From NCBI RefSeq assembly GCF_002095395.1, contig NZ_MJEI01000075.1:1-64000 (forward strand): DNA of 64,000 nt, written 5' to 3'. Under the pieces are notes generated by a model. It ran no database searches. It worked only from the letters and a program-made list of their open reading frames with translations, and was not told the DNA's origin. Each line of letters begins with the position of its first letter. Position 1 is the stretch's first letter. The position numbers and the translations under genes were made by a program. The DNA is from Williamsia sp. 1135 (GTDB taxonomy: Bacteria; Actinomycetota; Actinomycetes; Mycobacteriales; Mycobacteriaceae). Shown here one piece after another: positions 143 to 58,156 of this stretch.

Positions 143-1168
143 TCAGTTGGGTTTTGGTGACCATCCGAGCTTTGGTCCGAGATGGGTGGCGATGTCCGTG
201 ATGATCTGGAGGTAGTCGGCCTCGTCGAAGGAGAACGGCAGCGCGAAGGCGACCTCCTGCGCCCGCAGGAAGCCCGCATGGGAGAACAGGATCTCGGCGA
301 TTTCGTCGGACGATCCGACGATGTCCGGCGCGAACATCATCTGTCGCGGTCCTTGCGGCGACAATGTCCGGTCGAAGCGGGCCGCCGCGTACTCCTTGTA
401 TTTTCGGACCTGTTCCGCCGTTGCGGAGTCCGTGGGTATCACCACCAGACCCTGTGAGACGCGGGATTTTTCGGGGTGGGGATGATTGGCCCGGTACGCG
501 TCGATGTGCTGGCCTTGGATCGTCGCGAAGTCGCGAGAGTCGGTTCCCTCGGTGTTGACGACCGAACTGGTCAGATAGTTGAGCCCCTGGCGACCGGCCC
601 AGATGGCCGAGGAGAGCATGCCGCCGTACCAGAGCCGATCGATCAATCCGGGTGAGTGTGGCTGAACGATTCGGGAGAACTGCTCGATACCCACGGTGCC
701 CTCGAAGTCGCTCACCGGCACCCCACGGATGTGGTCCATCAGCCGCAGGACCCGATCCTTGCTGAAGTTCTCGAGGTCGTACGACTCCGGATACAGCTTG
801 GTCTTGAAGTCGTCGTACCGCATCGGCGTACCCACGGAGACGCCAGGATTGACCCGGCCGCCGGAGAGCAGGTCGACGGTCGCGAGGTCCTCGGCCAAGC
901 GCAGGGGGTTCTCGAGTCCGAGCGGGATGACCGCCGTGCCGAGTTCGATCCGCTTGGTGCGCTGGGTGGCAGCCGCCATGACCGCCACCGGAGACGAGAT
1001 CCCGTATTGAAGGTGCCGGTGTCGCAGCCACACGCTGTCGAAGCCGAGTTCTTCGGCCAGTTCGATGGTGCGCAGGGTCTCCTCGTGGCCGGTTCGCGGG
1101 TCCGCGGGGTCAAAGCGCCCGATGGTGAGAAAACCGAGTTTGTCGAGGGTCTGACCTGGCTGTGGCAT
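143..1168 (-). CDS. LLM-class flavin/F420-dependent oxidoreductase
   Basis: A 341-aa protein of the bacterial luciferase-like superfamily, a TIM-barrel fold that uses reduced FMN or F420 to oxidise or reduce small organic substrates. The family signature is visible in the N-terminal half: ELAEELGFDSVWLRHRH, then the strand/turn RIELGTAVIPLGLENPLRLAEDLATVDLLSGGRVNPGVSVG split over residues of about 70-115. The ATG has a good GGAGG seven bases upstream and starts 3 bp after the stop of the TetR gene, so the two are cotranscribed. The substrate cannot be read from sequence; the neighbouring phosphotransferase and 371-aa protein suggest a shared catabolic or detoxification route. FMN versus F420 is not decidable here. 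Confidence 0.9.
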   Translation of the reverse strand: MPQPGQTLDKLGFLTIGRFDPADPRTGHEETLRTIELAEELGFDSVWLRHRHLQYGISSPVAVMAAATQRTKRIELGTAVIPLGLENPLRLAEDLATVDLLSGGRVNPGVSVGTPMRYDDFKTKLYPESYDLENFSKDRVLRLMDHIRGVPVSDFEGTVGIEQFSRIVQPHSPGLIDRLWYGGMLSSAIWAGRQGLNYLTSSVVNTEGTDSRDFATIQGQHIDAYRANHPHPEKSRVSQGLVVIPTDSATAEQVRKYKEYAAARFDRTLSPQGPRQMMFAPDIVGSSDEIAEILFSHAGFLRAQEVAFALPFSFDEADYLQIITDIATHLGPKLGWSPKPN

Positions 1169-1171
1169 GTT

Positions 1172-4146
<2,975 letters not shown>

Positions 4147-49408: not shown

Positions 49409-49446
49409 TCGTCGCGCGCGAGGGGTGATTCCTCCTGTGGCGATCA
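49406..49446. terminator. Inverted repeat between convergent genes
   Basis: TGATCG and CGATCA, each containing one of the two genes' stop codons, flank an inner GAGG/CCTC pair. It may form a weak bidirectional terminator. Confidence 0.4.
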
Positions 49447-50010
49447 GTGATTCTCGGCCGCGTTCTTGGCGTGGAAGCGCGCTTTCTTGTGACGATTCCC
49501 GCACGTGTTCATATCGCACCATTTGCGGCTACGGCTCTGGCTCGTGTCGAAGAAAGCGGCTCGGCATGTCGGCGATGCGCATAGAGCCAGTTTTCCGTCC
49601 CGCTCGCCCGCGATGATGCTGATCGCGTCGGCGGCGATGACGCCCAGGGCGTCTTCCACACAGGACGCCGAACTGAGCCGCCATTGGCGGTGGCGGTCGG
49701 GCGTCAGGGTGGCCGCCGCGCGGCCTTGCACGCTCCGGCCATTGATGACCTCGACTGCGGACGTGGACAGAGGCTCGCCGATCGCAGCCGCGGTCGCGGT
49801 TGCGTGAATTGATTCCCTGAGTTCGCGGGCGAGGTCGAGTTGCGCGGCGGTGCAGGAGTCCACGGCGAGGCCGTTCACAGTCAGCCAATCGACGAGTCGC
49901 CTCGGCGTGGGAATGCGCTCGACAGGCTCGCCATGTCGCTCCGACAACGTCCCTGTGAAGGAGGTCGCCAGCACGCTACCGAGGCGGAAATCAGGAAACT
50001 CAGCGGGCAT
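49444..50010 (-). CDS. CGNR zinc-finger (ABATE) regulator
   Basis: A 188-aa protein. The N-terminal ABATE-type domain contains LATSFTGTLSERHGEPVERIPTPRRLVDWL. The C-terminal zinc finger reads LCASPTCRAAFFDTSQSRSRKWCDMNTCGNRHKKARF, with the CGNR signature and four zinc cysteines. Such proteins are thought to regulate transcription, in some cases with the N domain as a ligand sensor. It is divergent from the epoxide-hydrolase gene across a 101-bp gap containing an inverted repeat, so it may control that gene. Confidence 0.9.
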   Translation of the reverse strand: MPAEFPDFRLGSVLATSFTGTLSERHGEPVERIPTPRRLVDWLTVNGLAVDSCTAAQLDLARELRESIHATATAAAIGEPLSTSAVEVINGRSVQGRAAATLTPDRHRQWRLSSASCVEDALGVIAADAISIIAGERDGKLALCASPTCRAAFFDTSQSRSRKWCDMNTCGNRHKKARFHAKNAAENH

Positions 50011-50111: not shown

Positions 50112-51284
50112 ATGCCCCAACCCACCGACGTGCAGCCGTTCGAAGCGCGCGCGACCGACGCAGAGCTCGATGACTTGCGTACGCGATTGACCTCGGCACG
50201 CCTACCAGAGGCTGAAACGGTCAATCGCGCAGCGCCCGACCCTCGCCGATGGGATCAGGGTGTTCCGCTCACCGACCTCGTCGAGGTCGCCGACTACTGG
50301 CGCACCGGATACGACTGGCGGTCGTTCGAAGCGCGCCTGCACGGAATCGGCCAGTTCCGCACGGTCATCGACGGTTTGGGAATCCACTTCCTGCACCGCC
50401 GATCCTCGCGCCCAGACGCCACGGCTCTGATCGTGACGCACGGCTGGCCCGGAAGCATCACTGAGTTCATCGATGTGGTGGACGAGCTGGCGGATCCGAT
50501 GGACGCCGCCGCGCCCGCCTTCCACGTCGTGATCCCGTCCCTGCCCGGCTTCGGGTACAGCGACAAGCCGGCCACCACCGGCTGGGGCACCGAGAAGATC
50601 GCGGCAGCATGGGTCGAACTCATGGACAGGCTCGGCTACCGCAAATTCGTTGCCCACGGCGGCGACTGGGGAGGTGTGATCACCACGATCCTCGGTGGCA
50701 GATTCCCGTCACACGTTCTCGGCATCCACACAACGACCGCGCAGGCACCGCCTGGGTTGTCGATGGACGGGCTGACGGCGGCCGAACGCACATGGACTGA
50801 GGAAACCTCCGAGTTCAAACGGCATCGGGTGGCGTACGCAAAGCAGCAGGCGACCCGGCCGCAGACGATCGGCTACTCGCTTGTCGACTCGCCCGTTGGA
50901 CTCCTGGCCTGGATCCTCGACAAGTTCGCCGAGTGGACAGATACCCGAGACAGTCCATTCGAGACAATTTCCAGGGACCGGATTCTCGACAACGTCACTC
51001 TGTATTGGCTGACGCGGACAGGTGCGTCGTCGGCCCGCATCTACTACGAGAGCCACAATTCTCTCGATCCCGAACTACGGGTAGATGTTCCCTCCGCAAT
51101 CACTACGTATCCCCGCGACATCGAGAAGTCTCCGCGCCCGTGGGCGCAAGAGCGATTCCGGCAGATCGTTCGATGGAGGGCGCCCGAGACCGGGGGACAC
51201 TTCCCGTCACTCGAGGTTCCCGAGTATTTCGTCAAGGATCTACAGGAAGGTCTCGCAACAGTGTTGGCGGCCAACGGTCGGTGA
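50112..51284 (+). CDS. Epoxide hydrolase family protein
   Basis: A 390-aa alpha/beta hydrolase of the microsomal-type epoxide hydrolase family. The N-terminal EHN region (RATDAELDDLRTRLTSARLPE and DYWRTGYDWRSFEARLHGIGQF) is complete. LIVTHGWPGSITEFIDVV is the HGWPGS oxyanion motif, and KFVAHGGDWGGVITT holds the nucleophile Asp. The Tyr pair and the closing GGHFPSLEVPEYFVKDL provide lid and catalytic His. Opens epoxides to diols, for example from terpenoid or lipid oxidation. AGGAG precedes the ATG. The 3' end overlaps the convergent TetR gene by 53 bp. Confidence 0.92.
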   Translation: MPQPTDVQPFEARATDAELDDLRTRLTSARLPEAETVNRAAPDPRRWDQGVPLTDLVEVADYWRTGYDWRSFEARLHGIGQFRTVIDGLGIHFLHRRSSRPDATALIVTHGWPGSITEFIDVVDELADPMDAAAPAFHVVIPSLPGFGYSDKPATTGWGTEKIAAAWVELMDRLGYRKFVAHGGDWGGVITTILGGRFPSHVLGIHTTTAQAPPGLSMDGLTAAERTWTEETSEFKRHRVAYAKQQATRPQTIGYSLVDSPVGLLAWILDKFAEWTDTRDSPFETISRDRILDNVTLYWLTRTGASSARIYYESHNSLDPELRVDVPSAITTYPRDIEKSPRPWAQERFRQIVRWRAPETGGHFPSLEVPEYFVKDLQEGLATVLAANGR

Positions 51285-51858
51285 TCATCTCGGTCATCTC
51301 GGTCACCCATGTTTCGTCGAGGGCCGCATCTCGGCGAATCAGGATGCGGAAAATCGCCGTGCCCGCGACCACCTCGGCGAGCATCGGCAGCTGGTCATCG
51401 CCGCGGCGCTCCTGACCGAAGCGAGATTCGAAAGCTGTCAGGTTCCCGCCCAGTCTCGCGATCATCATGTTGTGGAGCTCCGGGTCGGCAACGGTGTCAG
51501 CGATCAGGCCCGGAAGAGCCAACCGCACCTCGGGTCGGTCGAAGATCACCCGGACGGTCTCGACCAAACCCCTTATCTCAGTGCGGATATCACCGGAACC
51601 GTCCGGCGTGGGGATCGCTTCGGCGAACAACACCGCTTCGTGAACGAGTTGCGCCTTGCCTGACCACCTCCGGTAGATCGCAGCTGTGGTCGTTCCGGCG
51701 CGGGCAGCGATCGCCGACAATGACAACGCGGAGTAACCCGTCTCGAGGATCAGTTCGCGAGTGGCCGCGATGATCGCGGCATCGATCCTGCCGTCGCGTG
51801 GCCGCCCCGGCGCGGACTGCGCCGACCTCTTGCCTTCGTTGCGGCTTTCTGCTGTCAT
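51232..51858 (-). CDS. TetR family regulator (paralogue of the 1172-1801 gene)
   Basis: A 208-aa TetR protein. HTH core [34 protein letters not shown] is nearly the same as in the TetR at 1172-1801, and both start with a charged tail ending in GRPRD. It is divergent from the second 371-aa gene, with a small dyad between, and so most likely represses that operon. Its last 17 codons are antisense to the end of the epoxide hydrolase gene. Confidence 0.9.
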   Translation of the reverse strand: MTAESRNEGKRSAQSAPGRPRDGRIDAAIIAATRELILETGYSALSLSAIAARAGTTTAAIYRRWSGKAQLVHEAVLFAEAIPTPDGSGDIRTEIRGLVETVRVIFDRPEVRLALPGLIADTVADPELHNMMIARLGGNLTAFESRFGQERRGDDQLPMLAEVVAGTAIFRILIRRDAALDETWVTEMTEMITDRWPPTLLRDLPVDP

Positions 51859-51865
51859 GACTCCA

Positions 51866-51880
51866 GTATAGTTCCAATAC
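51866..51880. promoter_or_regulatory. Weak dyad in the tetR/371-aa promoter (locus B)
   Basis: GTAT-AGTTCCA-ATAC has 4-bp inverted ends (GTAT/ATAC) in the 50-bp divergent gap, 8 bp before the tetR start. It is weaker than the operator in locus A and does not obviously share its sequence. Confidence 0.35.
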
Positions 51881-51908
51881 AGTGTGCATCGTATTTGAGG
51901 GAGAGCTT

Positions 51909-53024
51909 GTGAACCTGAGCGCGCTCGACGAGTATCCAATCCATCAGACGCCCGCGCCACTGACCTGGCCGGCCACCTCCGATCGAAACTTCTACGACCG
52001 GTCGTACTTCAACGTGCTCGACCGAGCCGGCCGCTTCATGGCGTTGACCGGAATCGGTTACTACCCGCGCCTCGGCGTCAAGGACGCCTATTTCGTCGTC
52101 CGCCGCGGGGACACGCAGACCGCCGTACACCTGAGTGACGCCATCGACGACGACCGCCTTCATCAGAACGTCAACGGTTACCGTCTCGACGTCATCGAGC
52201 CTTTGCAGCAGATGCACCTGACACTCGCGCCGACCGAGGGCATTTCCGCGGATCTCACCTGGCGCGGTCTGTTTCCCGCCGCACTGGAGAAGCCGCACGA
52301 AATGCTCACCGACCGGCGAGTGACGCTGCAGGCGAGTCGATTCGCCCAGGTCGGATCATGGCAGGGCTGGATCGACGTCGACGGCGAACGGCTGGAAGTC
52401 GACCATGACAGCAGTGTGGCGAGCCGCGACCGCTCATGGGGGATCCGACCTGTCGGTGAGGCCGAGCCGGCCGGTCGGCCGGATACCGCATTCCGCGGAA
52501 TGTGGTGGCTCTACCTACCGCTCGCTTTTGACGATTACCAACTGTTCTTGATCCTGCAAGAAGATCCCGACGGCCACCGTAGCCTCTATGACTGCACCCG
52601 CCGCTGGCGAGACGGCCGCGTCGAACAGCTCGACGGGGTGCGCGCCACCATCGACTATGCACCCGGAACGAGGATTCCTCGGGGCGCCCATGTGGATTTC
52701 ATGAACCGTGCAGGGGACCAGATCTCGTTGGACGTCGAATCGAAGTTGTTTGCACCCATCGCTTTCGGATCGGGCTACGGTGGCGACTCCTCGTGGGCGC
52801 ACGGAAGCTGGAAGGGCGGTCCGTTCGCCGAACGCGTGAGCTTCGACCTGACGGACCCGGAGGTGATGGCCCGAGCGCCGTTCAGTCTCATCGACCATAT
52901 CGGCGAGGCCGTGTGCACTGAAGCCGACGGAACGGTCAGCAAAGGCGCGGGTTTGTTCGAGCATGGCCTGATCGGCCCACACCACCCGTCGGGATTCTCC
53001 GACTGGACCGACGTGGCCAATTAG
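51909..53024 (+). CDS. 371-aa RDRSWGIRP protein, possibly lipocalin-like (copy B)
   Basis: Paralogue of 3031-4146: same length (371 aa) and roughly half the residues identical by eye, with DEYPIHQTP, SDRNFYDRSYFN, RRGD-QTAVHLSDAID, RFAQVG, RDRSWGIRP (173-181), GMWWLYLPL, SGYGGD and LFEHGLIGPHHPSGFSDW. GTG start with GAGGGAG just upstream fixes the N terminus; an upstream ATG would add nine residues absent in copy A. The beta-rich pattern and RDRSWGIRP recall AttH/CrtC double lipocalins, an unverified resemblance. The next gene follows after 10 bp, so it is the first gene of an operon with the oxidoreductase and PEP-synthase-like enzyme. Confidence 0.87.
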   Translation: MNLSALDEYPIHQTPAPLTWPATSDRNFYDRSYFNVLDRAGRFMALTGIGYYPRLGVKDAYFVVRRGDTQTAVHLSDAIDDDRLHQNVNGYRLDVIEPLQQMHLTLAPTEGISADLTWRGLFPAALEKPHEMLTDRRVTLQASRFAQVGSWQGWIDVDGERLEVDHDSSVASRDRSWGIRPVGEAEPAGRPDTAFRGMWWLYLPLAFDDYQLFLILQEDPDGHRSLYDCTRRWRDGRVEQLDGVRATIDYAPGTRIPRGAHVDFMNRAGDQISLDVESKLFAPIAFGSGYGGDSSWAHGSWKGGPFAERVSFDLTDPEVMARAPFSLIDHIGEAVCTEADGTVSKGAGLFEHGLIGPHHPSGFSDWTDVAN

Positions 53025-53034
53025 GCGCCCGGGG

Positions 53035-54030
53035 ATGAAAATCATGACAGCGCTGTTCGGTCCCACCGATGCGGTCGAACGCGCAGAAGTGCTCAAAGAA
53101 GCCGGCGCAGCCGGGGTGTTCACGTTCGAAGGACCGTTCGACGTTTTCACGCCGCTGGTGCTGGCGTCGTCCGTGAAGGGTCTCGACGTGATGTCGAATG
53201 TCGCGATCGCGTTTCCCCGCAACCCGATTCAGCTCGCACACCAAGCGAACGATCTGCAACTGCTGAGCGAAGGGCGTTTCATCCTGGGGCTGGGCACGCA
53301 GGTACGCGCACAGATCGAGAAGCGCTACGGGGCGGAGTTCGATCATCCGGTCGCCCGGATGAAAGAGATGGTGGGAGCGTTGCGAGCGATCTTCGCCACG
53401 TGGAATGAGGGGGAGCGGCTGGACTTCCGCGGAGAGTACTACCGCCACACCTTGATGACGCCCACCTTCGTGCCCGGGCCGAACCCGTTCGGACCGCCGC
53501 CGATCTATCTCGGCGCGCTCGGGCCTCGGTTGACCAAAGCCACGGCCGAAGTGGCCGACGGTCTGTTGGTGATGCCCTTCGGGACCAAGCGGTTCCTGCA
53601 CGAGACGACGCTCCCCGCCGTTCGCGACGGACTGTCTGCGGCCGGCCGCAGCGAAGATGACTTCGAAGTGGTGCCTGAGATCATCGTGTCGGTCGGAACC
53701 GGGCGAGACGACGACCACGCCTCGACTCGGATGTTGCTGGCGTTCTACGGCTCCACACCGGCCTACCGGCCGGTGCTCGACGCCCACGGCTGGGGCGATC
53801 TGCAGCCCGAACTCAACGCGATGTCCAAACAGGGCCGCTGGCAGGAGATGGCCGGCTTGATCGACGACGACATCCTGCACACCATCGCCGCATGCGGCAC
53901 GCCGTCCGAGGTGGCCTCGCACATCCGCGACCGTGTCGACGGGGTGTCGGACCGGATCTGCCTCTACCAACCGGGTCCCATTGAGGTTGAGGCCCTGGCC
54001 GAGATCGTGGACGCTTTGGGTGGATCATGA
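53035..54030 (+). CDS. LLM-class F420-dependent oxidoreductase (TIGR03617-like)
   Basis: A 331-aa luciferase-like oxidoreductase, F420-dependent by resemblance to the actinobacterial TIGR03617 group. It starts MKIMTALFGPTDAVERAEVLKEAGAAGVFTFEGPFDVFTPLVLA and contains VAIAFPRNPIQLAHQANDLQLLSEGRFILGLGTQVRAQIEKRYG (about 62-105), PIYLGALGPRLTKATAEVADGLLVMP, and the tail DGVSDRICLYQPG. It differs in subfamily from the oxidoreductase at 143-1168. The ATG is 10 bp after the 371-aa stop, and its own stop overlaps the next gene by 4 bp, so the three are one operon. Confidence 0.92.
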   Translation: MKIMTALFGPTDAVERAEVLKEAGAAGVFTFEGPFDVFTPLVLASSVKGLDVMSNVAIAFPRNPIQLAHQANDLQLLSEGRFILGLGTQVRAQIEKRYGAEFDHPVARMKEMVGALRAIFATWNEGERLDFRGEYYRHTLMTPTFVPGPNPFGPPPIYLGALGPRLTKATAEVADGLLVMPFGTKRFLHETTLPAVRDGLSAAGRSEDDFEVVPEIIVSVGTGRDDDHASTRMLLAFYGSTPAYRPVLDAHGWGDLQPELNAMSKQGRWQEMAGLIDDDILHTIAACGTPSEVASHIRDRVDGVSDRICLYQPGPIEVEALAEIVDALGGS

Positions 54031-56408
54031 TGCCGCTGCGATTGATCGAGTTCGACGACGTCAGCGACAACCGCTACGGCGGCAAAGCATCCGGTCTCGC
54101 CGAATTGCGCCGCCTCGGACTTCCGGTGCCGGTGGGATTTGTCATCGCCTACGCTTCCGAGCAGGTGACCGCCGGTGACGCCGGGGACTGGTTCGCGCGG
54201 ATGACCGCCGTCGGCGCTACTCCGGTGGCCGTCAGGTCCTCGGCAGTCGGTGAAGATGGTGACGATCAATCCTTTGCCGGGCAATACGATTCCGTGCTCG
54301 GTGTCGACTCCGTCGATCACTTCGTCCGAGCCATTCGCGCGTGCGCCGCCTCTGTGCATTCTCGGCGAGTCTCGTCGTACAGCGGACAACAGACCGCCAC
54401 CATGCATCTGGTGGTTCAGCAGATGGTGGACGCGCGCGCCGCGGGGGTGGTGTTCACCGCGGATCCGGCCACCGGCCGGCGCGACCTCATGGTCATCGAC
54501 GCCATTGCCGGACTCGGCGAAGCGCTCGTCGACGGCACCGCATCCCCGGACCATCTCGTCCTCGATATCGACGGCAGCCCCGCAGTCCGTGAGGTCGGTG
54601 GAACGCCGGTGTTGTCGACCGACGAGATCGCCGACATCCGGGCCGGTGCTTTACGTGCCGCAGAACACTGGGGCAGGCCCATGGACCTCGAGTGGGCGAT
54701 CGACCAATCCGGGACACTGTGGTGGCTGCAGGCCCGTCCGATCACCACGCTGCCCGGCGATCTGAACGAGATGGATTCGCCTCTCGCAGGGGAAGATCAC
54801 GTCTACACGCGCTGCAACATCGGAGAGATGATGCCGGGGGCATTCTGCCCGTTGACCGCATCGGTTTCCGGCTTCGCCATCGACTACGCGATGCAGATGA
54901 CCCAGGTGGTGGCGCGGGCGCAGCAGAGTTATCAGAAGCCATGGCTGCAGGTCGGCTATTTCCAAGGACACATGTTCTTGAACATGACCGAGGGGACAGG
55001 ACTGAGCTCAGGCCTCCTCGGCAACTCTCTAGAGCAGTTCTCGATTTCGATCTGCGGTCGGGTTGTCGACGAGCTGAAGCCCAAACCGCCGAAACCGTTC
55101 ATTGCGAAACTGATCAACACGGTTCGGCTCAGCACATACGCATTGTCCGCCGGTCCCGCGATCCGGCGCCTGCAGGACCAAATTGCCGAGTTCCGCATCC
55201 CGACCAGTGACGATCCGCGACTTGTGTTGCATGAGTTGGAATCTGGCGTCGAGCGGTATTGCGACATCACGCTGACTCACGTGCGGTCTTCGTCGCGCGC
55301 GGCAGTCGCGGCCAACATCCTCGAAGGCGTCTTGATGAAACAGGCGGTCAAGGCGGGACGTGGCGAGGACGAGGGGCGAGCCGACGCAACCCGGCTCATG
55401 GCCGGAGCATCCGAGGTCGAGAGTGCCCTCATGCTCGAAGAGCTCGACGCGGTGGTACACGCCGTGGCCGCCGACGCGGTGGCCGCCGAGATGTTCTTGG
55501 CCGCGACGCCGGGCACCGCCATCTCCGAGTTGCGAACCTCGGGCGACTCGATCAGTCAGGCGTTGGAGCAGTTCCTTGCTCGTCACGGCCACCGCGGGTA
55601 TCGAGAACTGTGTATGCGTGACCCATCGTGGGCGGAGGATCCAGAAGGGCTCGGTGCCATGATGCAGGTGATGGTGCGGTCGGCGCTCGATCCGACTACG
55701 ACCAGGCCGACCAGCATCGACGTCGAGGCGTCCACATCGTCTACCGTCAGGCTTCTTGCACGGTTGGCGCAGGGTGGCGCCCGCGGGCGCGAGGAGACCA
55801 AATCGAAGATGGCGCTGATGGCGCACTCGCTCAAGCTCGGTTACCGGCACCTCGGTGAGGTGCTGGCGAAGGAGGGACGACTGCCCGACTCGGATCTGGT
55901 GTTCTTCTTCGACCGTGCGGAACTGACCCGCATCGTCGGTTCGGAAGACGTCACCGGACTCGTCCAGAGCGCGGTGAAGCGTCGCGAAGCGCTGGCATTT
56001 CAGAGCTCTCTCGAGTTCGCCGATGTTTCTGTCGGGCGGCCCACCCCGCTGATCGCCCGTCCGCAACTTAGTGTCACCGGCGATGAGATCGTCGGCAGGC
56101 CCGCCAGCCGTGGTTCCGTGGAAGGCGTGGTGCGCGTGGCGAAATCGATCGTCGACGCGCGCCAAGTGCAGCGTGGTGAGATCCTGGTGGCCCCGGTCAC
56201 CGACGTGGGGTGGACGCCGTACTTCACGGTCATCGCTGCACTCGTCACCGATATCGGCAGCTCTGTGTCCCACGGTGCTGTGGTGGCGCGCGAGTACGGT
56301 CTGCCCTGCGTCGTGAACACCCTGGTCGCCACGCAGGCGCTCAAGACGGGCGATCGAGTTCGAGTGGACGGTGACCGAGGTGTGATCACGCGTCTCGATC
56401 GGCCCTGA
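54027..56408 (+). CDS. PEP-synthase / rifampicin-phosphotransferase-like enzyme
   Basis: A 793-aa three-part enzyme. Residues 1-250 are the ATP-grasp PEP/pyruvate-binding domain (NRYGGKASGLAELRRLGLPVP, VAVRSSAVGEDGDDQSFAGQY, PMDLEWAIDQSGTLWWLQARP). A long middle region of about 400 residues resembles the substrate domain of Rph rather than the PEP synthase barrel. The C-terminal swivelling phosphohistidine domain has GSSVSHGAVVAREYGLPCVV with His749. Such enzymes use ATP to phosphorylate the His and pass beta-phosphate to an acceptor, rifampicin in Rph or pyruvate in PpsA. The acceptor here is unknown. Coupled by 4-bp overlap to the F420 oxidoreductase. Confidence 0.87.
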   Translation: MMPLRLIEFDDVSDNRYGGKASGLAELRRLGLPVPVGFVIAYASEQVTAGDAGDWFARMTAVGATPVAVRSSAVGEDGDDQSFAGQYDSVLGVDSVDHFVRAIRACAASVHSRRVSSYSGQQTATMHLVVQQMVDARAAGVVFTADPATGRRDLMVIDAIAGLGEALVDGTASPDHLVLDIDGSPAVREVGGTPVLSTDEIADIRAGALRAAEHWGRPMDLEWAIDQSGTLWWLQARPITTLPGDLNEMDSPLAGEDHVYTRCNIGEMMPGAFCPLTASVSGFAIDYAMQMTQVVARAQQSYQKPWLQVGYFQGHMFLNMTEGTGLSSGLLGNSLEQFSISICGRVVDELKPKPPKPFIAKLINTVRLSTYALSAGPAIRRLQDQIAEFRIPTSDDPRLVLHELESGVERYCDITLTHVRSSSRAAVAANILEGVLMKQAVKAGRGEDEGRADATRLMAGASEVESALMLEELDAVVHAVAADAVAAEMFLAATPGTAISELRTSGDSISQALEQFLARHGHRGYRELCMRDPSWAEDPEGLGAMMQVMVRSALDPTTTRPTSIDVEASTSSTVRLLARLAQGGARGREETKSKMALMAHSLKLGYRHLGEVLAKEGRLPDSDLVFFFDRAELTRIVGSEDVTGLVQSAVKRREALAFQSSLEFADVSVGRPTPLIARPQLSVTGDEIVGRPASRGSVEGVVRVAKSIVDARQVQRGEILVAPVTDVGWTPYFTVIAALVTDIGSSVSHGAVVAREYGLPCVVNTLVATQALKTGDRVRVDGDRGVITRLDRP

Positions 56409-56551: not shown

Positions 56552-58156
56552 ATGACAGTCGCTGCAGACTCGACCAGCGAGGTCCTCCTCGAACCGATGC
56601 GCTCGAGTCGAAATACCTGGAACACCCAGGTACGACGACACGCTCTGATGACACCAGATGAGATCGCCGTCAAATATCTCGGTGCCGCAACCACCTGGCG
56701 TGACCTCGACGACCGATCGCACCGCTTTGCCGCGGCTCTGCAACACCGCGGCGTCCATTTCGGCGACCGTATCTTGATCGCGTTGCTCAATCGAACCGAA
56801 TACGTCGAGGCGGTGCTCGGAGCGAATCTGATCGGCGCGATCCCGGTCCCTGTCAACATCCGCATGAGCCCGGCCGAGGTGGGCTACCTGGTTCAGGACA
56901 GTGGCGCCAGGATCATTCTCACCGAACGACTTCTTGCACCGCTCGCAGATGCGGTGCGAGCGTCCACGGGCACCATCGACACCACCATCGTCGTAGACGC
57001 CGGAGACAGCGCCGATCACCTCGACTACGAGACGTTCCTCGCGCAGGATCCCGTTGAGCCGGCAGAAGTCGATATTCCTGAAGACACCGTGGCCCTCATC
57101 ATGTACACCTCGGGAACCACCGGAAAGCCCAAGGGCGCCATGCTGACCCACGCCAACCTGCAATCGCAGGCGATGACGACGATTAATGCATCTGATGGCA
57201 AGCCGGGTGACATTGCCTCGGTCGTGCCCCCGATCTTCCATATCGCGGGCATCGCCGCCTTCGCTCCGGTCTTCTATCGCGGCATCCGGGCGGTCATCCA
57301 TCCACTCGGCGCGTTCGACCCGGACGACATGCTCGACACCTTGGAGCGTGAAGGCACGACATCGGTATTCATGGTGCCCGCCCAGTGGCAGGCGGTCTGC
57401 GCTGCCCAAAGGGCCAAGCCCCGCCACCTGAAGCTGCGGACTATCAGTTGGGGAGCTGCGCCGGCTCCCGATACCGTGCTCGAAGAGATGAATGAACTGT
57501 TCCCCGAAGCACTCAACATGACTGCATTCGGGCAAACCGAGATGTCGCCGGTCACAACCCTTCTCGAGGGTCAGGACGCCATTCGGAAGATTGGGTCGAT
57601 CGGCAAAGTGGTGCCCGCGGTGACTGCCCGAATCGTCGATCCTCTGATGGAGGACGTCAAACCCGGCGAGGTCGGCGAAATCGTCTATCGCGGGCCCAAT
57701 CTGATGAAAGGCTACTGGCGGAATCCACAGGCGACGGCAGATGCGTTCCGGGGCGGCTGGTTCCATTCCGGCGATCTGGTTCGGCAAGACGACGAGGGTT
57801 TTCTGTACGTGGTCGACAGAGCCAAAGACATGATCATCTCCGGTGGAGAGAACATCTACTGCGCCGAAGTCGAGAACGTGCTCTACAGCCATCCTGCCAT
57901 CGCCGAAGCCGCCATCATCGGCCGGGCGCATCCGAAATGGGGTGAGGTGCCGGTTGCAGTAGTCGTTTTGGCTGAGGGCACCAACTCGCTCACACTCGAC
58001 GACCTGGGACCTCACCTCGACGAGAACTTGGCGCGCTTCAAACACCCCAAGGACCTCATCGTCGTCGACGAACTACCACGCAATCCCGGTGGCAAGGTCG
58101 TCAAACCCAAACTCCGCGATGCGTACGGCAGTAAGGACGCCGGTCTGACTCATTGA
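56552..58156 (+). CDS. Acyl-CoA synthetase (AMP-binding)
   Basis: A 534-aa AMP-forming ligase. P-loop IMYTSGTTGKPKGAMLTHAN (about 184-203), FGQTEMSPVTTLLEG, hinge GGWFHSGDLVRQDDEGFLYVVDRAKDMIISGGENIYCAEVE and catalytic Lys in NPGGKVVKPKLRD. The N terminus (NTWNTQVRRHALMTPDEIAVKYLG) is that of FadD-type aliphatic or aromatic acid CoA ligases. It begins 143 bp after the PEP-synthase-like gene, with GGGGAT before the ATG; it may belong to the same pathway by activating the carboxylic acid product. Confidence 0.92.
   Translation: MTVAADSTSEVLLEPMRSSRNTWNTQVRRHALMTPDEIAVKYLGAATTWRDLDDRSHRFAAALQHRGVHFGDRILIALLNRTEYVEAVLGANLIGAIPVPVNIRMSPAEVGYLVQDSGARIILTERLLAPLADAVRASTGTIDTTIVVDAGDSADHLDYETFLAQDPVEPAEVDIPEDTVALIMYTSGTTGKPKGAMLTHANLQSQAMTTINASDGKPGDIASVVPPIFHIAGIAAFAPVFYRGIRAVIHPLGAFDPDDMLDTLEREGTTSVFMVPAQWQAVCAAQRAKPRHLKLRTISWGAAPAPDTVLEEMNELFPEALNMTAFGQTEMSPVTTLLEGQDAIRKIGSIGKVVPAVTARIVDPLMEDVKPGEVGEIVYRGPNLMKGYWRNPQATADAFRGGWFHSGDLVRQDDEGFLYVVDRAKDMIISGGENIYCAEVENVLYSHPAIAEAAIIGRAHPKWGEVPVAVVVLAEGTNSLTLDDLGPHLDENLARFKHPKDLIVVDELPRNPGGKVVKPKLRDAYGSKDAGLTH

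Follow-up and report, generated by a model that had tools for sequence, protein, structure and literature searches.

Related Rv3169-family proteins beside unrelated kinases in Williamsia sp. 1135: a predicted two-step, ATP-driven dehydration of alcohols

The 64,000-nucleotide stretch of Williamsia sp. 1135 analysed here (contig NZ_MJEI01000075.1, positions 1 to 64,000; hereafter the window) carries two gene clusters, locus A (143-4146) and locus B (51232-56408), each with a TetR-type regulator, a luciferase-like oxidoreductase (LLM) and a 371-residue protein, and thereby raises the question of which reaction such a recurring gene set might serve. A sequence-only reading had proposed a conserved enzymatic module, perhaps acting on a lipid or terpenoid and including two equally long relatives from a family without known function. 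The two 371-residue proteins indeed align from end to end with 56% identity over 369 residues (E 1e-155), including the motif RDRSWGIRP present in both, and the TetRs, 45% identical overall, share the nearly identical helix-turn-helix GYSAL(T/S)L..(A/V)A.RAGTT..A(L/I). Locus A also contains a gene for an aminoglycoside phosphotransferase (APH)-type kinase, omitted from the title of that reading, which is the important partner of its 371-residue gene. Since locus B encodes a 793-residue dikinase, a phosphotransferase accompanies the 371-residue protein in both loci; the two phosphotransferases belong to unrelated families. As the 371-residue family includes a phosphosteroid lyase that leaves a double bond behind, both clusters probably dehydrate an alcohol at the expense of ATP.

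The 371-residue proteins (locus A, 3031-4146; locus B, 51909-53024; both on the forward strand with GTG start codons) are members of the NCBIfam family NF053593, "Rv3169 family", with scores of 481 and 443 bits, respectively, over profile positions 1-350 and against a cut-off of 150. When a profile of 24 family sequences was compared with all solved structures, the entries 9fzn, 9g2i and 9g4c, designated "25-phosphosteroid lyase" (25-PSL), were retrieved with E 3.5e-133, and the next match followed at E 0.002. The single sequences matched 9fzn with E 4.4e-70 (locus A) and 5.9e-60 (locus B). The locus B protein was also modelled with AlphaFold (pLDDT 80.7, pTM 0.84), and a fold search with this model placed 25-PSL chains (9g4c, 9g2i, 9fzn) on all five top ranks (E about 1e-28 to 1e-29, best 2.8e-29), among them entries whose titles name phosphate and desmost-1,4-diene-3-one. 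They were followed by calycin-type pericyclases and kievitone hydratase, which explains the earlier impression of a CrtC- or AttH-like protein. With a named family and a member structure released in January 2026, the statement that no function is known no longer holds; we found no literature on DUF7064/DUF7065, the "Rv3169 family" or the 25-PSL structure.

Among the residues invariant in 191 distinct homologues are D6/D7, H11/H12, D173/D174, R179/R180 and Y290 (numbering of locus A/locus B). The third of these is the aspartate of RDRSWG, whose codons lie at 3547-3549 (Asp173, locus A) and 52428-52430 (Asp174, locus B) on the forward strand, as checked in the sequence. The aligned regions of 9fzn and 9g4c differ at precisely this place, RDRSWG versus RNRSWG, and 9g4c with the Asp-to-Asn exchange is the product-bound entry. 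From this difference and the entry title we infer a catalytic role of the RDRSWG aspartate. Full-length homology, fold and the conserved aspartate thus all point to 25-PSL, and the most likely reaction of the family is phosphate elimination; the earlier suggestion of a binder or hydratase was apt with respect to an enzymatic role and a CrtC/AttH-like fold, but not with respect to binding or hydration.

The kinase gene of locus A (1898-3034, forward strand; the start codon, taken as ATG 1898, is uncertain) encodes an APH-superfamily protein (PF01636) with WGDARFGN and LDWE motifs. It matches 3ats with E 1.5e-174 and 9fsg with E 1e-78, conserving WGDAR.GN and LDWEM, and falls into the subfamily of APH-fold kinases represented by these two structures. 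The entry 3ats, itself named only as an uncharacterized protein, we take to be Rv3168 of Mycobacterium tuberculosis. Judged by these matches, the locus A enzyme is probably a kinase of the same type as the 25-hydroxysteroid kinase and related to 9fsg. In Sterolibacterium denitrificans, an ATP-dependent 25-hydroxysteroid kinase acts first, followed by a distinct C-O lyase that forms an alkene by removing the phosphate (PMC8449060; PMC11061730); in 2021 the lyase gene was not yet known, and no candidate was seen near the kinase gene (PMC8449060). The pair of locus A resembles this system in the lyase family, the invariant motif and the relation of its kinase to 9fsg. It differs in forming a TetR-governed operon in which the kinase stop codon lies over the lyase start (4-bp overlap), while the Sterolibacterium kinase lacks a nearby lyase candidate. 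Moreover, the host is an actinobacterium, locus B contains a different kinase, and the chemistry is deduced here from homology.

A closer counterpart of the gene arrangement is found in M. tuberculosis, where the repressor of Rv3168-Rv3169 is Rv3167c, whose palindromic binding site lies between its own gene and Rv3168; the regulator has also been connected with phthiocerol dimycocerosates (PDIM) and escape from the phagosome (PMC5340868). The corresponding three genes of locus A agree with these in order and orientation, with a divergent TetR and a palindrome in the promoter region, but locus A has an extra lineage-specific LLM gene after tetR. No enzyme function is assigned to Rv3168-Rv3169 in the literature we found. 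On the basis of the lyase-family match and the invariant RDRSWG aspartate, locus A is therefore read as a TetR/APH-type kinase/phospholyase operon, by homology the equivalent of Rv3167c-Rv3168-Rv3169, and most likely represents an actinobacterial operon form of the known reaction.

Locus B keeps the lyase and has a dikinase of the rifampin phosphotransferase (RPH) type in place of the APH kinase. The dikinase (54027-56408, forward strand; PPDK_N and PEP-utilizers domains) is composed of an ATP-grasp domain, a substrate domain and a C-terminal swivel His domain that ends the protein. Its best solved matches are the RPH structures 5hv2 and 5fbs (E 1e-53). His749 (codon 56271-56273, forward strand, checked) in the swivel domain aligns with His825, the phosphorylated histidine of RPH-Lm (PMC4844700), and Arg70 with Arg117. 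By the curated score it is not a true RPH, its 229 bits lying far under the family cut-off of 999; the residues Arg666, Glu667 and Lys670 of the rifampin-phosphate site fall into a 17-residue gap of the alignment. A phosphoenolpyruvate (PEP) synthase or pyruvate phosphate dikinase (PPDK) was likewise discarded because of the wrong domain order and the missing C-terminal PEP/pyruvate barrel, only PPDK_N and the mobile domain being present. A structure predicted for the dikinase with AlphaFold from six sequences reached a pLDDT of 39.7 and was discarded. Small-molecule dikinases of RPH-like type occur in actinobacterial catabolism, e.g. HpeHI (PMC12167813). The locus B enzyme shares ATP-grasp, C-terminal swivel and aligned catalytic histidine with RPH (PMC4844700) and with HpeHI, CreHI and PpsAB (PMC12167813), but it is a single chain unlike the two-component HpeHI, and it is paired with a phospholyase rather than with drug inactivation or phenol activation.

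The neighbourhoods of 174 distinct lyase genes with enough flanking sequence, a sample deliberately rich in Mycobacteriales and B-clade loci, revealed an adjacent kinase gene in 165 cases (APH type on the same strand in 114, dikinase in 51, both in none), leaving nine with neither. The phosphoryl-transfer gene, whose recurrence the earlier reading had wished to check, is the key partner, and the idea of a conserved set of enzymes whose probable target is a lipid or terpenoid-like alcohol is borne out. When 70 lyases were arranged in a tree, well-supported branches required no fewer than three separate positions for a dikinase partner: the B clade, next to which L174 branches as a sister with an APH kinase; the surveyed loci L183 and L184, where the dikinase occupies the usual position of the APH kinase; and the distant L032 and L209. 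A dikinase orthologue is present in 55 of 401 genomes of the family, beside a lyase gene in 47 of the 55 by our own count, and in one more genome a contig boundary separates the two. The lyase family itself was detected at E 1e-20 in 275 of the 401 Mycobacteriales genomes sampled. The genome of the window also encodes a fusion (L033:5865-7721, contig C28, reverse strand) of an ecdysteroid-kinase-like (EcKL)/APH domain with DUF7065-DUF7064 carrying the motif QRDHSWG, and relatives (L036, L037) have such a fusion as well; a single polypeptide that unites kinase and lyase-like domains speaks for a shared reaction in two steps.

We consider it likely that each locus uses ATP to dehydrate an alcohol in two steps via its phosphoester, the alcohol presumably being tertiary and hydrophobic as in a sterol side chain or a terpenoid-like compound. 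In locus A the overall reaction would be R3C-OH + ATP to the phosphoester and further to alkene and phosphate. In the first step the hydroxyl group would be phosphorylated, in locus A by the Rv3168-like, 9fsg-related APH-fold kinase and in locus B by the RPH-type dikinase, which would take up the β-phosphate of ATP at His749, with AMP and Pi as released products. In the second step the Rv3169-family enzyme would eliminate phosphate to the alkene with the RDRSWG aspartate as key catalytic residue. This scenario builds on family membership, conserved residues, operon structure, the alternation of kinases and conserved palindromes, from which the reaction in the organism and its substrate are deduced. 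Locus B is most likely a variant of the kinase/phospholyase system with a non-homologous kinase, and its dikinase would serve the lyase encoded beside it.

Several observations weigh against this proposal. In the structure alignment only ca. 32% of the residues are identical to 25-PSL, which leaves room for a different substrate. The origin of 9fsg as the Sterolibacterium kinase is our assumption from neighbouring accessions, as the entry is named merely "aminoglycoside phosphotransferase-like". HsaD, taken to indicate degradation of the steroid rings, does not exceed its curated cut-off in the genome of the window (260 against 400 bits); steroid ring degradation is thus not supported, and complete steroid breakdown should not be assumed. 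In a phylum-wide sample outside the family, an adjacent kinase was found for 5 of 20 lyase genes (four APH, one dikinase) and none for the other 15. Compared with 165 of 174 in the first sample, the kinase-lyase linkage is strong in the family of the window and loose elsewhere, and the unrelated neighbours that would refute the earlier reading are not what Mycobacteriales show, but are in part seen elsewhere in the phylum. Finally, 7 of the 55 dikinase orthologues do not adjoin a lyase gene (three stand alone, three are in TetR-LLM-dikinase clusters, one is in a decayed cluster), and the lone and lyase-less cases indicate that the dikinase may act on its own.

Some of these points bear on a rather doubtful alternative, according to which the module acts on phosphoesters of hydroxyacyl-CoA or hydroxy fatty acids, in the manner of ACAD10/11 kinase domains, and thus belongs to lipid β-oxidation instead of the metabolism of sterols or terpenoids. 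The HsaD score under its cut-off would fit, as would the matches of the locus A APH kinase and of the fusion to the ACAD11 kinase domain (8v3v/8v3u, E 2e-11 and 1e-5) and the FadD5-type acyl-CoA ligase that follows locus B (56552-58156, forward strand; NF005857, 763 bits, cut-off 733). However, Rv3168 and 9fsg are matched much better, the lyase is related to 25-PSL and not to an acyl-CoA dehydrogenase, and the ligase is loosely associated, being kept beside locus B mainly in near relatives and not in most genera. It is also unlikely that the dikinase modifies an antibiotic or another small molecule like RPH and is merely co-regulated with lyase and LLM. Its best solved matches and the six orthologues without a lyase neighbour speak for such an independent role, while the low RPH family score, the unaligned rifampin-phosphate site, the mutual exclusion of dikinase and APH kinase beside the lyase and the at least three origins of the pairing speak against it. 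A non-catalytic lipid-binding calycin or a hydratase, as proposed earlier for the 371-residue protein, would fit its calycin-type fold relatives (kievitone hydratase 7a0q; the pericyclases Fsa2, Phm7 and CghA). It is highly improbable, because these relatives share the overall fold at ca. 10% identity, E of about 1e-7 to 1e-10 and different chemistry, compared to 1e-28 and ca. 32% for 25-PSL, and because the polar residues D173, H11, R179 and Y290 are invariant, as an active site would be.

The dehydration proposal provides a concrete, testable reaction for a family present in most sampled Mycobacteriales genomes, including the uncharacterised Rv3168-Rv3169 of M. tuberculosis. It suggests that aerobes commonly use the phosphorylation-elimination strategy described for sterol degradation under anaerobic conditions, and that one lyase family is supplied by kinases of two unrelated folds in a clear case of non-homologous replacement. 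As a tentative extension, kinase and phospholyase might form a general dehydration module of aerobic actinobacteria, Rv3168-Rv3169 included, in which an unrelated RPH-type dikinase took over the kinase slot on three or more occasions; the natural substrates in host-associated mycobacteria could comprise tertiary oxysterols such as 25-hydroxycholesterol of the host.

Both gene sets are presumably controlled by their TetRs. The tetR of locus A (1172-1801, reverse strand; PF00440/PF16859), in a position and orientation as in Rv3167c, is divergent to the kinase gene in most A loci, and a candidate operator overlaps its start (1800-1824, ATTACGCTACCAACCGTATCGTAAT; 9 of 10 arm positions paired). The core of this palindrome, ACGCTAC..(GTA)NCGT, occurs once in the window and in 49 of 81 A-type loci, mostly mycobacterial. 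The tetR of locus B (51232-51858, reverse strand; PF00440) is divergent to the lyase gene in B-clade loci. Its candidate operator (51876-51895, AATACAGTGTGCATCGTATT) conforms to AATAC-N10-GTATT, which in relaxed form is found once in the window and in 36 of 49 upstream regions of the B clade, mostly at a constant distance from the lyase start. The divergent TetR would repress the set and presumably be released by the substrate or product as ligand.

The LLMs, which the sequence-only reading had counted among the shared elements, are indeed present once in each locus, but they belong to different subfamilies and lack a real pairwise alignment (31 residues, E 0.034). That of locus B (53035-54030, forward strand), an F420-type enzyme of the TIGR03617/MSMEG_2256 subfamily (455 bits, cut-off 278), is the sole member above the cut-off in this genome. 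Its gene is separated from the lyase gene by 10 bp, which had been taken for an overlap, and overlaps the dikinase gene by 4 bp; this overlap and that in locus A had been described correctly. The LLM of locus A (143-1168, reverse strand; PF00296, E 3e-28) reaches no subfamily cut-off; TIGR03617 is absent among the 24 matches listed, of which TIGR04027 is the best (110 against 413 bits), and in the set surveyed only close relatives of this genome have the gene beside the module. Of 80 APH-type modules, 24 have an LLM of the TIGR03617 type no farther than 5 kb away and 10 have one at a distance of at most 300 bp; the loci L122-L124 keep TetR, lyase and dikinase without the LLM. Since the two LLMs differ in subfamily and that of locus A is lineage-specific, a place in the conserved core was ruled out. 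The LLM appears to be a recurring optional accessory, perhaps for reduction or oxidation of the product; the F420-type enzyme of locus B would act on substrate or product without being essential.

Further observations concern individual loci and neighbouring genes. The clusters L219, L222 and L229 consist of TetR, LLM and dikinase, the lyase having been lost or never present. In L218:6482-13982 and L220:2709-10204, a B-type dikinase gene without a lyase is embedded in the same arrangement between genes for a 226-residue and a ca. 1395-residue protein, which by eye resemble sensor or regulatory proteins. The lyase gene of L203:6782-10164 lies between two APH kinase genes, one on each strand, and those of L049/L030 and L228 are split over two frames, likely due to frameshifts or decay, with the LLM gene of L228 also broken. 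In the window, an epoxide-hydrolase-like α/β hydrolase gene (50112-51284) immediately upstream of locus B overlaps the 3' end of the opposite-strand tetR, and a small protein encoded at 49444-50010, with a Cys-rich CGNR-like motif at its end (CASPTCRAAFFDTSQSRSRKWCDMNTCGNRHKKARFH), is probably a zinc-finger regulator.

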